Shown piece after piece: positions 5,495 to 60,990 of a stretch of DNA of 64,000 nt. The position numbers were made by a program, and so were the translations under genes. Source of the DNA: Alteromonas sp. M12 (GTDB lineage: Bacteria; Pseudomonadota; Gammaproteobacteria; Enterobacterales; Alteromonadaceae); the NCBI RefSeq assembly GCF_037478005.1, contig NZ_CP144164.1, forward strand, positions 496,001-560,000, in the 5' to 3' direction. The notes beneath the pieces were generated by a model. It worked only from the letters and a program-made list of their open reading frames with translations, made no database searches and had not been told where the DNA came from. The stretch's first letter is position 1, and the number at the start of each line of letters is the position of its first letter.

Positions 5495-6932
5495 TTTGGT
5501 CGAAGAAAATTTATTATATGCAGCAGATTTAGATCCCAATAAGGTCGTATCCGCTTTAAATCTGATTTGTCAGCATCAAAATGATTTTGCCGATATTTAT
5601 TTTCAATCTAGTCAGCATGAAGGTTGGGTATTGGAAGACGGAATAATTAAAGACGGTAGCTATAATATTGAAAAAGGCGTAGGTGTGCGCGCAGTTAGCG
5701 GTGAAAAAACCGGTTTCGCCTACTCTGATGATATTAGCCAAGAAGCGTTGACTAAAGCGGCAAAAGCATCTCGCAGCATCGCAAGTACTGGAGGTAGTTT
5801 CAATGTTGCTGCCAGCGCACCCAAACAATCATCTGCAAGGTATTTTGCTGAGAATCCCATCCTTGGTATGCAAGAACATCAAAAAATCACCTTATTGCAG
5901 GATGTTGATAAATATATTCGAGATAACGAGCCCTTAGCTACCCAAGTCGTTGTGAGCATTAGTGGGGTGTATGAAGAAGTATTAATTGCTGCTACAGATG
6001 GCACTTTTACTACCGACATACGGCCACTTATTCGACTTAATTGTTCTATCTTAATTGAAAACAATGGAAGAAGAGAGCGCGGCAGTGCCGGTATGGGTGG
6101 ACGTTATGGATACCAATATTTCTTACAATCTGATGGGGATAAAACGCGTTATCAAGTACTAGCTGATGAAGCAATCCACATGGCCAGAGTAAATATGCAG
6201 GCAATTGATGCCCCCGCAGGTTTGATGCCTGTTGTTTTGGGAGCTGGCTGGCCGGGCGTATTATTGCACGAAGCTGTAGGGCACGGTTTAGAAGGTGATT
6301 TTAATCGTAAGGGTGCTTCAACTTTTAGTGGAAAAATGGGACAACAAGTCGCCGCTAAAGGGGTAACTGTAGTTGACGATGGAACTTTGGCTGACCGCCG
6401 TGGTTCATTATCTGTTGATGATGAAGGTACACCAACACAACGAAATGTTTTGATTGAAGACGGTGTATTAACCGGGTATATGCAAGACAAATTAAATGCT
6501 AGATTGATGGGTGTTAATCCTACAGGAAACGGACGTAGAGAGTCCTATGCTCATCTTCCTATGCCGCGAATGACGAATACCTTTATGTTAGAGGGGCAAT
6601 ATAGCCCTGAAGAGATTATTAGTAGTATCGACAAAGGGGTTTATGCGCCTAACTTTGGTGGTGGGCAGGTAGATATCACATCGGGTAAGTTTGTTTTCTC
6701 GACCTCAGAAGCATATTTGATTGAAAATGGCAAAATTACCACTCCAATCAAAGGCGCAACGCTAATTGGCAATGGCCCTGAAGTAATGCAAAAAATTTCG
6801 ATGATAGGTAATAATTTGAGCCTAGACAAAGGCGTTGGTGTGTGTGGTAAAGACGGACAAAGCGTGCCGGTAGGCGTTGGTCAGCCCACCCTCAAAGTCG
6901 ACGAATTAACCGTAGGCGGAACCGCCCTATAA
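5487..6932 (+). CDS. tldD: TldD, subunit of the TldD/TldE metalloprotease
   Basis: Zinc metalloprotease subunit that works with PmbA/TldE to process unfolded peptides (microcin B17 precursor and CcdA in E. coli). The zinc motif [11 protein letters not shown] (HExxxH) lies near residue 261. I choose TTG at 5487 as start: AGGAG lies 5 nt upstream, and the protein is then 481 residues, exactly the E. coli length, with an N-terminus that aligns to enteric TldD. A longer in-frame reading from 5394 would bury 100 nt in the nitrilase gene. The chosen start overlaps the nitrilase stop by 8 nt, suggesting translational coupling. Its partner pmbA lies 0.8 kb downstream, beyond darP. Confidence 0.95.
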
Positions 6933-6942
6933 CATGGGCTCC

Positions 6943-7170
6943 AATCAATCTAGCGGGCTGTTGTAGCATGGCCTTCAGGCCATGGAAGGTTCAGTCAATC
7001 TAGCGGGCTGTTGTAGCATGGCCTTAAGGCCATGGAAGGTTCAGTCAATCTAGCGGGCTCTGTAGCATGGGCTTCAGGCCATGGAATGATCCATATCTTG
7101 CGCGAGGCTAAAGCACCCGCCTACAGGAGGAATGATCCAAATCCTGCGCGGGGCTAAAGCACCCGCCTAC
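6943..7170. repeat. REP-like cluster between tldD and darP
   Basis: Three direct copies of a unit of about 50 bp (from 6943, 6993 and 7043) contain CAATCTAGCGGGCT followed by GTAG and a hairpin such as CATGGCCTTCAGGCCATGG. They are followed by two inverted copies of another GTAG element, ending in CACCCGCCTAC at 7124 and 7170. GTAG next to a GC-rich hairpin is the signature of REP sequences mobilised by RAYT (TnpA-REP) proteins; no RAYT gene is in the window. The last copy overlaps the 3' end of darP, whose TAG stop is the TAG of the REP tetranucleotide. Confidence 0.8.
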
Positions 7171-7676
7171 AACATTTCTTTTAAATATTGGAATAATTCA
7201 CGTGCGGCTTTAGGAGGCTTATTTAGTTCTTGCTGTTTTTTAGCCTGACGAGAATATTGTCTTAACTTTTGGCGATCTAGTTCTGGGTGCTCGTTGATTA
7301 ACACATCAATGCCTCTATCACCCTGCAATACTTTGTCTCGCGCTTCTTCTACATGATGGAACTTGCCAGTTTGTTGACGATGAGCCAATTGCAACTGATC
7401 TAGAGCTAACTGGATAGGCTGGGTATCTCGATGCCGCATCAGCTTACCAATTAGTTGTAATTGACGGCGGTAACCATCTTTCTTCTTATTGATTCTACGA
7501 GCTAGTTCAACTGCTTCGGTTAACTCTTCATCCATAGGGATTTTAGATAATGAAGCCGCACCTAGCTCAACTAGTGCTTCCCCCAATTTTTGAATAGCAA
7601 GACTTTCCTGCTTAAGTTGGGTTTTGCTTTTAATTTCTTGTTCTGGGCCGTTTCCGGTAAAATTCGTATCGCTCAT
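7167..7676 (-). CDS. darP: DarP (YjgA), ribosome maturation/quality factor
   Basis: DUF615-family protein of 169 residues (E. coli YjgA/DarP is about 183) that binds 50S precursors. The helical, Lys/Gln-rich body with INKKKDGYRRQLQLIGKLMRHRD is typical. It is encoded opposite to tldD and pmbA, a common arrangement in gammaproteobacteria. The stop codon at 7167-7169 falls inside a REP tetranucleotide, so the extreme C-terminus may have been altered by REP insertion and the protein is slightly short. The start ATG at 7674-7676 is the only good candidate. Confidence 0.92.
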   Translation of the reverse strand: MSDTNFTGNGPEQEIKSKTQLKQESLAIQKLGEALVELGAASLSKIPMDEELTEAVELARRINKKKDGYRRQLQLIGKLMRHRDTQPIQLALDQLQLAHRQQTGKFHHVEEARDKVLQGDRGIDVLINEHPELDRQKLRQYSRQAKKQQELNKPPKAARELFQYLKEML

Positions 7677-7764
7677 GATAATGTCTTTAATGTTACACTA
7701 TGCCAATTGTAACCCAGCTAATAGCGCACAGCATTAAAAGTTGTGCATAGAAAGTGAGTCTTAT

Positions 7765-9096
7765 ATGCAAATGGAGCAACAATTAGCCCAAATTCAACAA
7801 GCAGTTGAAGACGTTTTGGCATTGGCTAAGCAAAAAGGGGCCAGTCATGCAGAAGCTAGCATGTCGAAAGTTGAGGGTATTTCCGTATCCACTCGGTTAA
7901 AAGAAGTAGAAACAGTTGAATTCACCAACGATGGTGGTTTAGGTATCAGTGTTTATTTTGGTCAACGTAAGGGCAGTGCATCAACTGCAGATTTGAGTAT
8001 AAATGCGCTGACTTTAGCAGTAGAAAAAGCCTGTGAAATTGCTAAGTACACCAGTGAAGACCCCTACTCAGGTCCTGCTGATGAGGCTTTAATGGCCTAT
8101 GACTATCCAAACTTGGATATGTACCATCCAATTGAACTCGATACGCAACACGGGATTCAGCAAGCTATTTTAGCCGAAGAGGCAGCCTTGGGCTTCGATC
8201 CTAGAATTACCAATTCAGACGGTGCTTCATACAACGCTAATATTGGTATGAAGGTGTATGGCAATAGTCATGGGTTCATTGGTGGTTATCCAAGTAGTCG
8301 CTACAGTTTAAGTTGTGTCGTTATCGGAGAAGATAACGGTGATATGCAGCGCGACTATAGTTATACCGTTAATCGTCAAGCCGATTTGATGACGCCTGCC
8401 GCACAAATCGGAAAAGAAGCCGCAGAATTTACTTTAAGCAGACTAAATGCGCGTAAATTGAAGACGGCTAAAATACCGGTTATTTTTCATCGTGATGTCG
8501 CTGCGGGTTTACTTGGACATTTTGTTAGTGCTATTAGTGGCGGCAGCTTGTTCCGGAAGTCATCTTTTTTGCTCGACAGTTTAGGTAATCAAGTTTTACC
8601 TAGCTGGTTTGAAATACTCGAACGTCCGCATATTAAATCGGGGCTTGCCAGCTCACCTTTCGATAATGAAGGTGTTAAAACTGAAGATTTGACTATAGTG
8701 AGTCAGGGTGTATTGAACCATTATCTTTTAACCAGTTACTCGGCGAGAAAGATGGGGATGCAGACTAATGGCCATGCTGGTGGTATTCATAATTGGTTGA
8801 TTAAACATACTGGCCACTCTGATGATGCATTATTAAAGGAAATGGGAACAGGCTTGTTAGTCACTGAACTAATGGGCCAAGGAGTGAATATCGTTACTGG
8901 CGATTATTCTCGAGGTGCGGCTGGCTTTTGGGTTGAAAATGGAGTGATTCAATATCCCGTTCACGAAATAACCATTGCTGGTAACTTAAAAGACATGTTG
9001 ATGAACATTTCTGCCGTTGGTTCTGTGGCTGAAACTCGAGGAAGTATCCACACAGGATCTATCTTAGTAAGTGAAATGCAACTCGCTGGCAGTTAA
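7765..9096 (+). CDS. pmbA: PmbA/TldE, partner subunit of TldD protease
   Basis: Second subunit of the TldD/TldE protease, lacking the zinc motif of TldD. Family landmarks are GISVSTRLKEVETVEF, SGGSLFRKSSFLLDSLG, TGHAGGIHNW and GDYSRGAAGFWVENG. I use ATG 7765, giving 443 residues; an in-frame TTG at 7741 would add 8 residues but has only a weak ribosome-binding site. The gene diverges from darP, with about 90 bp between the two starts, and is followed by a bidirectional terminator. Confidence 0.94.
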   Translation: MQMEQQLAQIQQAVEDVLALAKQKGASHAEASMSKVEGISVSTRLKEVETVEFTNDGGLGISVYFGQRKGSASTADLSINALTLAVEKACEIAKYTSEDPYSGPADEALMAYDYPNLDMYHPIELDTQHGIQQAILAEEAALGFDPRITNSDGASYNANIGMKVYGNSHGFIGGYPSSRYSLSCVVIGEDNGDMQRDYSYTVNRQADLMTPAAQIGKEAAEFTLSRLNARKLKTAKIPVIFHRDVAAGLLGHFVSAISGGSLFRKSSFLLDSLGNQVLPSWFEILERPHIKSGLASSPFDNEGVKTEDLTIVSQGVLNHYLLTSYSARKMGMQTNGHAGGIHNWLIKHTGHSDDALLKEMGTGLLVTELMGQGVNIVTGDYSRGAAGFWVENGVIQYPVHEITIAGNLKDMLMNISAVGSVAETRGSIHTGSILVSEMQLAGS

Positions 9097-9203
9097 AGCA
9101 CTATTTGAATCGATTGTATGTCATCTAACATTCTGCTTTCTAAACGGAAAAAGTTAGGTAAATTTGCGTTTAATTAGTGACCATTAGCGATTCATCAGAT
9201 AGT

Positions 9204-9230
9204 AAAAAAGGGCTTAATAAGCCCTTTTTT
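9204..9230. terminator. Bidirectional terminator between pmbA and arcA
   Basis: The hairpin AAGGGCTTAATAAGCCCTT is flanked by an A-run on the left and a T-run on the right, so it can terminate both pmbA (plus) and arcA (minus). Confidence 0.9.
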
Positions 9231-9259
9231 ACGGTGTCTAATACGTCAAATTGAAACGA

Positions 9260-9964
9260 TTACATGTCAACGGTGCCGCAGAAGCGGTAGCCTTCTCCAT
9301 GAATGGTTACAATCAAATCTTCTGAGTTGACTTCTGATTCGAAGTGCTTACGTATACGACGGATTGTTACGTCAACAGTACGGTCATTAGGACGCAATTC
9401 ACGACCTGTCATTTCCATTATCAACTGCTCTCTTGTTAGGATTTTTCCAGGGTTACTTAGGAACAAGTGTAACGCGCGGAATTCACTACGAGGAAGACGG
9501 AATTCGTTTTGGCTAGGAGATATTAGACTGCGACTATCACCATCTAAAATCCAACCATTAAAGCTTACGCGACTTGGAAGATCGTCATCTTCATTGTTGC
9601 TGAGCGTTCTATTCAAAAGATTTCGCGCTCTAATCGTTAGCTCTCTAGGGTTGAATGGCTTAGTTAAATAATCATCCGCGCCGATCTCTAATCCTAAAAT
9701 ACGGTCAACATCGTTATCTCTGCCGGTTAAGAATATCAAACCGACATTTTTGCGATCTCTGACTTCACGAGCAAGTATCAGCCCATTCTTTCCAGGTAAA
9801 TTTATATCCATAACAACTAGGTTAATGTTGTTATTTTCGAAAAAATCATGCATTTCGCTGCCATCTTCAGCTTCGAATACATTATAACCTTCAGCTTCAA
9901 ATAAGCTTTTCAAAGTAGTCCGTGTTACTACTTCATCTTCAACAATTAGTATATTGGGCGTCAT
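9260..9964 (-). CDS. arcA: ArcA, redox response regulator (OmpR family)
   Basis: Two-component response regulator of 234 residues controlling respiratory genes. The receiver has acidic residues D10/E11, the phosphoacceptor D53 in [12 protein letters not shown], and the conserved K in [19 protein letters not shown]. The C-terminal winged helix contains [26 protein letters not shown] and ends GEGYRFCG, almost identical to enteric ArcA. In E. coli the partner is ArcB; no ArcB is present here. The gene instead follows a YfiR-like gene and a sensor kinase on the same strand, with 62 nt to the YfiR-like gene. Confidence 0.95.
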
Positions 9965-10026
9965 TGTTTTTATCCGTTTTATTTCAATATATTTAGTTTA
10001 ACAGAAAATATCTATAAATCAGGCTA

Positions 10027-10554
10027 TTATCCAGTGAAATTTGCATACTTTAGTAGTCTTGCACTAAACTTTACGGGAGAATCGGCATACTGCTCTTTAT
10101 TTATGTAAATCCTTATCTTGTCGTACTCTTCAATAAGGCTAAGCAATCCCCCGTTTTTAATAAAAGATATAGTTTCTCCAATAGTGACAATAGATAAGCT
10201 TGTTTGTTTCAAATCTTTGTATAAAGTTTTGGACTCGCTCGACTTATCGACAAATATATAGTTACAACCTTGTTCAATAGCAGTAGGTAGAGAGTCTACT
10301 TGTTGGAGCTGTATCTGTTTTTTATTATGATTCAGTAAATCTGATTCATTTAGCATTAAATAGTGTTTTTGAGACTCTTGCTCTATTAAACAAAACTTTA
10401 AACTCATGAAAGACTGTTGCCACTTCGAATAATTGACCACATGTAAAAAGAAGGTGGAACGAATTGACGTTGCGGACACTTCAAAATCATTGTTGTGCGC
10501 ATAAACAATAGTGCTCCATGTCACAGTGATGAAAATAATTATTCTCAAAATCAT
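10027..10554 (-). CDS. YfiR-family periplasmic regulatory protein
   Basis: Protein of 175 residues with an N-terminal signal peptide (about 1-19, ending VYA). The middle reads FFLHVVNYSKW, then CLIEQES and CNYIFVDKSSES, and the C-terminal part has GGLLSLIEEYDKIRIYINKEQ. This is the pattern of the YfiR/DUF4154 family. In Pseudomonas, YfiR is the periplasmic repressor of the diguanylate cyclase YfiN. Here the start lies 3 nt after the stop of a membrane histidine kinase with a similar periplasmic domain, so the likely partner is that kinase. Family assignment is fairly secure; the regulatory role is inferred. Confidence 0.75.
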   Translation of the reverse strand: MILRIIIFITVTWSTIVYAHNNDFEVSATSIRSTFFLHVVNYSKWQQSFMSLKFCLIEQESQKHYLMLNESDLLNHNKKQIQLQQVDSLPTAIEQGCNYIFVDKSSESKTLYKDLKQTSLSIVTIGETISFIKNGGLLSLIEEYDKIRIYINKEQYADSPVKFSARLLKYANFTG

Positions 10555-18384: not shown

Positions 18385-18413
18385 TTGACTTGATAGCCAA
18401 GAATCCGTTTAAT
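18385..18413 (+). promoter_or_regulatory. Predicted sigma-70 promoter of tRNA-Phe
   Basis: TTGACT (18385-18390), a 17-nt spacer and TTTAAT (18408-18413) precede a GC-rich stretch CGCACCCACGGCG, the kind of discriminator common at stable-RNA promoters. The tRNA begins about 60 nt downstream. Confidence 0.6.
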
Positions 18414-18472: not shown

Positions 18473-18548
18473 GCCTCGATAGCTCAGTTGGTAGAGCAGC
18501 GGATTGAAAATCCGCGTGTCCCTGGTTCGATCCCGGGTCGAGGCACCA
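18473..18548 (+). tRNA. tRNA-Phe (anticodon GAA)
   Basis: A 76-nt cloverleaf: acceptor GCCTCGA pairs with TCGAGGC, discriminator A and an encoded CCA at 18546-18548. The D-arm is GCTCAGTTGGTAGAGC, the anticodon loop ATTGAAAAT reads GAA, and the T-arm is CCTGG-TTCGATC-CCGGG. The last 22 nt (TCGATCCCGGGTCGAGGCAC plus CA) recur several times downstream. Confidence 0.97.
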
Positions 18549-18560
18549 TTTATTCCAAGA

Positions 18561-18587
18561 GCCCTGCATGAAAATGCGGGGCTTTTT
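18561..18587 (+). terminator. First terminator after tRNA-Phe (type A)
   Basis: GCCCTGCAT-GAAA-ATGCGGGGC followed by TTTTT. The same type recurs at 18803-18829 and 19045-19071. Confidence 0.85.
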
Positions 18588-18680
18588 CGTTTTAGGTTGA
18601 AATCGAACCAGTGCCACGGGTCGTGTCCCGCTGCTGCGCGTGCGTCTCGATCCCGGGTCGAGGCACCATTTATTCCAAGA

Positions 18681-18709
18681 GCCCTGAACAGAAATGTTCG
18701 GGGCTTTTT
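18681..18709 (+). terminator. Second terminator in tRNA-Phe array (type B)
   Basis: GCCCTGAAC-AGAAAT-GTTCGGGGC followed by TTTTT; a second copy is at 18923-18951. The core CTGAACAGAAATGTTCGGG recurs with one change in the terminator at 21980-22014. Confidence 0.85.
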
Positions 18710-19348
18710 CGTTTTAGGTTGAAATCGAACCAGCGCCGCGGCTCGTGTCCCGCTGCTGCGCGTGCGTCTCGATCCCGGGTCGAGGCACCATTTATTCCAA
18801 GAGCCCTGCATGAAAATGCGGGGCTTTTTCGTTTTAGGTTGAAATCGAACCAGTGCCACGGGTCGTGTCCCGCTGCTGCGCGTGCGTCTCGATCCCGGGT
18901 CGAGGCACCATTTATTCCAAGAGCCCTGAACAGAAATGTTCGGGGCTTTTTCGTTTTAGGTTGAAATCGAACCAGCGCCGCGGCTCGTGTCCCGCTGCTG
19001 CGCGTGCGTCTCGATCCCGGGTCGAGGCACCATTTATTCCAAGAGCCCTGCATGAAAATGCGGGGCTTTTTCGTTTTAGGTTGAAATGAACCAGTGCCAC
19101 GGGTCGTGTCCCGCTGCTGCGCGTGCGTCTCGATCCCGGGTCATCAAAGATAGAACATGACAAGCTAGCAAGCTGAGTAACGGTGGAGATTGTTGTTGTG
19201 TTTATCAATCTGCTTATTAAGTGCGGATGAGCCGCTTTATCAGCTAATCAATGTGAGTAACTTGTTGTTTTATAGAAGCCTACGGGGACTGCGGCTTTTT
19301 AAATTATGCGTGCTGACCCCGTTAACAATGATTACCCTCTTTTATGTT

Positions 19349-22014: not shown

Positions 22015-22162
22015 CATTCAAGGTCAAATGCGTGGTCCCGTCACGCCTCCTTTTGTTATTATTTCATACAATCAAAAATTGCATGGTAGGCGAAATCATA
22101 TAATCCAAGTGATGGTGAGATATCCTTTGTAGCTATTAAACCCTAAACTAATAAAATTGATT

Positions 22163-22202
22163 ACTAGGCTACTAGGCTACTAGGCTACTAGGCTACTAGG
22201 CT
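22163..22202. repeat. Microsatellite, five copies of ACTAGGCT
   Basis: Five perfect tandem 8-bp units, ending 99 bp before the start of an ArsR-type regulator. CTAG is normally rare in bacterial DNA. Copy number could vary by slippage and shift promoter spacing. Confidence 0.9.
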
Positions 22203-22272
22203 ACCTAACCCTTATAACGATGTTAAACATGCACCGTTTAAACTTGTCTTTGAGAAACATATCCGCTATTTT

Positions 22273-60558: not shown

Positions 60559-60990
60559 GAAAAATATGGCCCATGTGCTTTTAGCTCAAGGAGTGTTGCT
60601 GTATGTCTAACGGGATAAATCCCGTGCTACAGGGATGTGTAGCCATGGGCTTTTAGCTCATGGAGTGTTGCTGTATGCCCAACGGGATAAATCCCGTGCT
60701 ACAGGGATGTGTAGCCATGGGCTTTTAGCTTATGGGATGTTGCTGTATGCCCAACGGGATAAATCCCGTGCTACAGGGATGTGTAGCCATTGGCTTTAGC
60801 CTATGGAATGTTGCTGTATGTCCAACGGGATAAATCCCGTGCTACAGGAATGTGTAGCCATGGGTTTTTAGCCTATGGAATGTTGGTGTATGCCCAACGG
60901 GATAAATCCCGTGCTACAGGGATGTGTAGCCATGGGCTTTTAGCTCATGGAATGTTGCTGTATGCCTAACGGGATAAATCCCGTGCTACA
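60559..60990. repeat. REPIN-like array, six copies of about 72 bp
   Basis: Each copy holds a left REP (GTAGCCATGGGCTTTTAGCT type) and a right inverted REP, AACGGGATAAATCCCGT followed by GCTAC, which is GTAGC plus a hairpin on the other strand. Right halves end at 60630, 60702, 60774, 60845, 60917 and 60989, a period of 71 or 72 bp. The leftmost copy is incomplete on its left side. A pair of inverted GTAG-flanked hairpins is the definition of a REPIN. The array fills the whole gap between the rplI terminator and the stop of the convergent TPR gene. Confidence 0.85.

Follow-up and report, generated by a model that had tools for sequence, protein, structure and literature searches.

The window analysed here, a stretch of 64,000 nucleotides, carries a tRNA-Phe(GAA) gene at 18473-18548 on the forward strand, and the row of short repeats behind this gene is a real array. 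The source genome is a single contig of 5.01 Mb, and this gene is its sole tRNA-Phe among 52 tRNA matches to RF00005 (the other 51 were all read; the count comes from scoring 150 of 379 first-look candidates). A probable tRNA-Phe promoter, TTGACT and TTTAAT separated by 17 nt, lies on the same strand at 18385-18413; it was assigned by eye and is absent from the consensus-scan list.

The array, all of it on the forward strand, is built around copies of the tRNA 3' end (tails). These begin with TCGATCCCGGGTC at 18527 (within the tRNA), 18647, 18769, 18889, 19011 and 19130, which corresponds to spacings of 120, 122, 120, 122 and 119 bp. The five complete tails are 22 nt long and end in CCA; the first is the 3' end of the gene itself (18527-18548), and the others occupy 18647-18668, 18769-18790, 18889-18910 and 19011-19032. 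Each is followed by a terminator-like hairpin of either the CCCTGCATGAAAATGCGGGG type (A; 18557-18586, 18799-18828 and 19041-19070) or the CCCTGAACAGAAATGTTCGGGG type (B; 18677-18708 and 18919-18950) and by a spacer, located at 18588-18646, 18830-18888 and 19072-19129 in the A units and at 18710-18768 and 18952-19010 in the B units. Part of tRNA-Phe recurs in inverted form in the spacer of unit 1, and the segments 18724-18740 and 18966-18982 of the B spacers are inverted relative to tRNA positions 18515-18531. The unit order is A-B-A-B-A, with approximately 120/122 bp per unit, and the third A unit measures 119 bp, its spacer having one base less than those of the other A units. The first repeat starts 98 bases 3' of tRNA-Phe, and the tandem repeat has a TRF score of 1225. 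An earlier note on this DNA had proposed the alternation of hairpins and the duplication of a 242-bp dimer; the hairpins do alternate, and 18527-18768 and 18769-19010 are 100% identical, which indicates that the duplication claim is right. Its description of four full units and a truncated one, each with CCA and a complete terminator, is accurate for the tails and terminators of the complete copies but not for the last copy, which consists of TCGATCCCGGGTC alone (19130-19142, 13 nt) and has neither CCA nor a terminator.

Absence of the repeats from independent assemblies had been named as a sign of artefact. In G182, assembled independently from the same species, a contig starts exactly at a tail and continues through unit A and the 13-nt stub into the same right flank. 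The one-contig source genome and this shared unit and right junction speak against an assembly artefact. The unit, the stub and the flank are thereby supported, but the copy number is not, because the G182 contig breaks at the array; no B unit was found among the G182 contigs searched.

The exact 19-nt tail is present in 51 of the 395 family genomes, with 0 for the reversed control among the matches listed, and in 45 of the 59 Alteromonas genomes. From 25 genomes, 54 tandem units (48 distinct) were extracted; four genomes belong to the genus group of the window and 21 to the 59 Alteromonas, the latter being a lower bound because selection of the Alteromonas genomes required the exact tails to be visibly in tandem. 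The units are spaced by 109-129 bp, with the single exception of a 242-bp step in G234 that itself comprises two units, and the tails are 22 nt in the window array and 19-22 nt in the relatives. In the comparison of copy number among related genomes that had been suggested earlier, the number of tandem units varies across these genomes, and the array is missing or decayed in several congeners. G004 contains degenerate tails past the first terminator, and G001 contains a single unit behind an island. G002 has a different tRNA-Phe tail, and a second copy was not found within the 681 bases examined; in G005 (59% complete), the exact tail was not found. Additionally, the right array ends differ between genomes.

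The terminators comprise types A to E and two others, with A and B present in both genera, and a pattern search finds a 3' arm with a T-run in all 48 distinct units. Within arrays, the mean identity is 0.93 for the spacer and 0.87 for the terminator region (56 pairs). The corresponding values are 0.72 and 0.79 between Alteromonas genomes (485 pairs) and 0.58 and 0.68 between the two genera (192 pairs), the between-genome values referring to the first two units per genome only. The array of G430 consists of four units with a single 62-nt core and four terminator types. Judged from these sequences, the arrays are in concerted evolution with terminator exchange. The B-type terminator hairpin also occurs outside the arrays: in G003 (C7, L042:11462-11501), one follows a gene whose end is PEP-CTERM-like, at a distance from tRNA-Phe.

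In light of the observed anatomy, recurrence, within-array homogenisation and mixing of terminator types, the repeats are interpreted as tandemly arrayed tRNA-linked repeats (TLRs) that make up a sequence family of their own, present at tRNA-Phe in the Aliiglaciecola group and in Alteromonas, and whose main effect would be that of serial terminators. This interpretation is given about an even chance of being correct. The unit would be a cassette in which the 3'-terminal 19-22 nt of tRNA-Phe are followed by a hairpin resembling an intrinsic terminator and then by a spacer. Recombination between identical tails or spacers would expand, shrink and homogenise the array and swap terminators between units, and termination in series behind the tRNA gene would be the main, selected effect. 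Escape past the first terminator may produce low-level RNAs consisting of the spacer, the CCA tail and the terminator after it, in the manner described for RrA/B/F in E. coli (PMC8144298); a dedicated function of such read-through RNA is possible.

Serial terminators are favoured because five complete hairpins with T-runs stand in series, as against 1.7 terminator-like sites expected in shuffles (nine were found, four of which are the tail's own hairpin). They are also favoured because the 3' arm with its T-run is present in 48 of 48 units while the type changes freely, as in G430, where a single core is combined with four types. The higher identity of spacers within arrays (0.93) than between Alteromonas genomes (0.72) and the agreement with the TLR definition, with a tail of 22 nt here and 19-22 nt elsewhere, likewise argue for the interpretation. 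Nevertheless, the missing or decayed arrays of G004, G002 and G005 and the tandem exact tails seen in only 21 of 59 Alteromonas do not support a strong need for serial terminators, and pure terminator selection does not explain a spacer that is common to two genera.

An array without any selected role, arising as a neutral by-product of tandem duplication and gene conversion behind the tRNA gene, is considered unlikely. The variable copy number, the differing right ends, the exactness of the dimer duplication in the window and the absence of the array from several congeners are all consistent with it, but the same kind of unit occurs in two genera, the period remains at 109-129 bp in all steps but the one that holds two units, and the terminator pattern is found in every distinct unit. 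Behind this one tRNA gene, the 48 distinct units from 25 genomes of culturable marine bacteria differ naturally in copy number, spacer and terminator, which allows selection on the terminator, the spacer and the tail to be separated.

For the spacer, 44 distinct sequences were aligned to nt 1-57 of tRNA-Phe, with 300 dinucleotide shuffles per spacer. For 12 of the 44 related rows, no more than three shuffles equal the inverted match to tRNA-Phe, a level uncorrected for multiple testing, and for seven of them none does (A and B of the window genome, both spacers of G007, and those of G003, G204 and G418). The direct match, which mostly involves nt 42-52, is at this level in nine of the 44, all from Alteromonas; the remaining spacers do not attain it. 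A model built from 30 Alteromonas cores (R1) scores the window units at 38.5-41.4 bits and the bare tRNA tail at 25.4 bits, which indicates that the spacer is common to both genera. Matches to R1 are present in 9 of 60 relatives at E<=0.01 and in 29 of 390 family genomes at E<=0.001 under stricter filters, which miss G182. These 29 genomes represent 5 of 52 genera (19 Alteromonas, six of the window's genus and four others).

The R1 scores are also consistent with a functional small RNA, in which read-through units would be processed into CCA-ended, structured RNAs acting as a sponge or decoy for a regulator or for an enzyme of tRNA processing. Precedents are provided by RrA/B/F, read-through RNAs that derive from the stretch between two terminators and are ligands of Hfq and CsrA (PMC8144298), and by the RtT RNAs of Actinobacillus pleuropneumoniae, which give Northern signals (PMC4986893). 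In the units themselves, hairpin 2 contains two pairs with both sides changed and 12 both-side-changed cells, compared with 3.5 in shuffles, and none of 500 shuffles reaches 12. However, the aligned units show modest covariation: two such pairs are also attained in 83 of 500 shuffles, sliding the partner by -2 gives an equal covariation score (0.077), and the last pair of hairpin 2 is broken in 12 of 30 rows. Hairpin 1 exhibits no compensatory change in the 30-core alignment. Whole units fold better than shuffles (z of -2.13 and -3.18), but the spacer plus tail does not (z of 0.07 and -0.94), which suggests that the excess of the whole units is explicable by the terminators. In addition, a GGA in a hairpin loop is present in 0 of 48 units in the predicted minimum-energy folds. 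Of four other repeats from the source genome folded in the same way, the two Arg repeats and the Lys repeat each show a GGA loop, and the Tyr repeat shows none. The five terminator-like hairpins in series also bear on this reading, since a hairpin of this kind in every unit implies that later units would be transcribed by serial read-through only, and this weakens the decoy idea. A decoy role of the units may be called possible, and the functional small RNA as a whole is regarded as unlikely.

It is doubtful, and quite unlikely in our estimation, that the units represent a novel family of structured RNAs driven by the tRNA-Phe promoter, with copy-number change by recombination dialling the RNA level. 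If this were true, the array length and the terminator mix would set how much structured RNA escapes, and the RNA would be made of pieces from tRNA-Phe, namely an inverted copy of approximately nt 42-57, a UGC-loop hairpin and a CCA tail, to which the Alteromonas RNA would add a direct copy of nt 42-52. Two further candidates were rejected or lost ground. A tRNA-like acceptor hairpin (9 pairs, ACCA overhang) owes much to the TCGA in the T-loop and the acceptor strand, and it is also undercut by the folding of the spacer plus tail at shuffle level. A phage or plasmid origin found no support, as the 242-bp dimer has no blastn match in the phage and plasmid collections at E<=1e-5.

The earlier note had compared the array with the tyrT repeats of E. 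coli. The same layout is indeed found at tRNA-Phe, but the RtT-like identity fails, as the RtT covariance model (RF00391) is absent among the 13 matches listed up to E=10 over 18473-19200. In the same genome, RF00391 matches at tRNA-Tyr with 51.3 bits (G000:C1:2223364-2223499, reverse strand) and weakly behind tRNA-Lys with 32.6 bits (C1:3060886-3061013, reverse strand), the cut-off being 45 bits. Among 14 control genomes, E. coli is the sole match; among 60 relatives, 16 match at E<=0.001, eight of them above the cut-off. R1, under the stricter filters, has no match at the RtT loci of the source genome. The Phe units share the CCA tail and the tandem layout with RtT but lack both the covariance-model match and the GGCAGGATGCC-type motif, which is common to the Arg, Tyr and Lys spacers (GGACAGGATGTCC at Tyr). 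Membership of the RtT family, with production of an RtT-like RNA or tRNA decoys, is thus extremely improbable, in spite of the identical layout and the presence of RtT elsewhere in the genome.

A scan for extra tails behind tRNAs (16-nt tail, at most one mismatch, within the stretches examined) finds two at tRNA-Arg(acg) (+121 and +122) and one each at tRNA-Tyr (+179), tRNA-Lys (+175), tRNA-Leu(gag) (+313) and tRNA-Ser(gga) (+3331). Behind each of the two tRNA-Arg(acg) genes, at +121/+122, stands a tail copy of 18 nt (L134:505-625 and 797-918), and the spacer of this repeat resembles those of the Tyr and Lys repeats, with no RF00391 match there.

TLRs have been known since 1978. E. coli K-12 contains 22 of them at ten loci, their last 18-19 bp being the 3' end of the upstream gene, and their function was unknown before three were studied (PMC8144298). 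According to the same source, the original claim that the tyrT RNA acts in amino-acid starvation has been retracted; a stringent-response role is still cited in PMC4986893. By its sequence, the Phe array can be placed within the TLR definition, and it looks like a new sequence family among these long-known, unexplained repeats, with versions in many relatives. The suggested independent evolution of the tyrT architecture is therefore correct as to the different tRNA but not as a lone convergence, since such repeats are already grouped as TLRs (PMC8144298) and the Phe array is a further member of the class. Like the E. coli TLRs, which number one to several per locus, it is located directly behind a tRNA or rRNA gene and its 3' end copies that of the gene, although the copied end is 18-19 bp in E. 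coli (PMC8144298) and 22 nt here. It differs in its position at tRNA-Phe, its spacer and the terminator-like hairpin in every tandem unit. RrA/B/F are similar in that an RNA-bearing repeat with an 18-bp copy of the upstream gene end is reached by read-through after the first terminator (PMC8144298), and in the Phe array a spacer and tail likewise lie between successive terminator-like hairpins in the direction of the upstream gene. However, RrA/B/F are located behind 5S rRNA, with one per operon, and contain CsrA-binding GGA motifs (PMC8144298), whereas GGA loops are missing from all 48 predicted folds of the Phe units. No earlier report of such arrays at tRNA-Phe was found in the titles and abstract starts of the open-licence literature, and PMC4119200 yielded no hit for tRNA-Phe.

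Within this family, the tRNA-Phe gene is used as an integration site by islands. G001 has an insertion at the anticodon loop, flanked by the 5' half (nt 1-38) and a full copy on one side and, after approximately 26 kb, by nt 31-76; next to its far end lies an integrase scoring 27.2 bits (cut-off 27.1). In G182 (C36, L111:1379-2571), an integrase-like gene with 25.4 bits, below the cut-off, and another terminator directly follow tRNA-Phe; an element seems to occupy the site in G182, and the site in the window is free of one. Several Alteromonas contain distant exact tails 3-79 kb away, and partial tRNA copies are a usual mark of integration (PMC9897764). These observations favour attachment-site scars, each tail being the old end repeat of a lost island at tRNA-Phe, but the left extension of the tail copies is bimodal (19-22 nt for 48 contexts, 45-48 nt for eight), and the arrays of G409 and G271 are found past a 48-nt copy, to the chromosomal side of the element inserted there. 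Islands of the anticodon-loop type (PMC2647930) resemble the array in their direct repeat of the tRNA 3' part, although their repeats are 45-48 nt long and kilobases away, whereas the array tails are 19-22 nt long and recur every 109-129 bp. This difference in tail boundary indicates that the units are not scars of these islands, and the scar reading is held to be very improbable; a variant with an older element and another crossover, in the T-loop, is possible. Partial tRNA tails beside a tRNA gene thus need not be island ends.

Among the other extra tails, that of tRNA-Leu(gag) is a 25-nt copy with one mismatch at +313 (L143:520-917), and a short ORF before it resembles the start of an integrase by eye; this copy is perhaps a real island remnant. 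At tRNA-Ser(gga), a 23-nt copy with one mismatch lies 3.3 kb off (L146, reverse strand, 6794-10214) and is followed by a terminator-like hairpin; it perhaps marks a small island. Elsewhere in the window, tandem repeats with palindromic pieces are present at 60571-60990 and 6945-7171 (72-bp and 50/46-bp units), and palindromic stretches of similar appearance are located downstream of tRNA-Lys. Additionally, TACTAGGC is repeated 5.4 times, free of mismatches, at 22162-22204.
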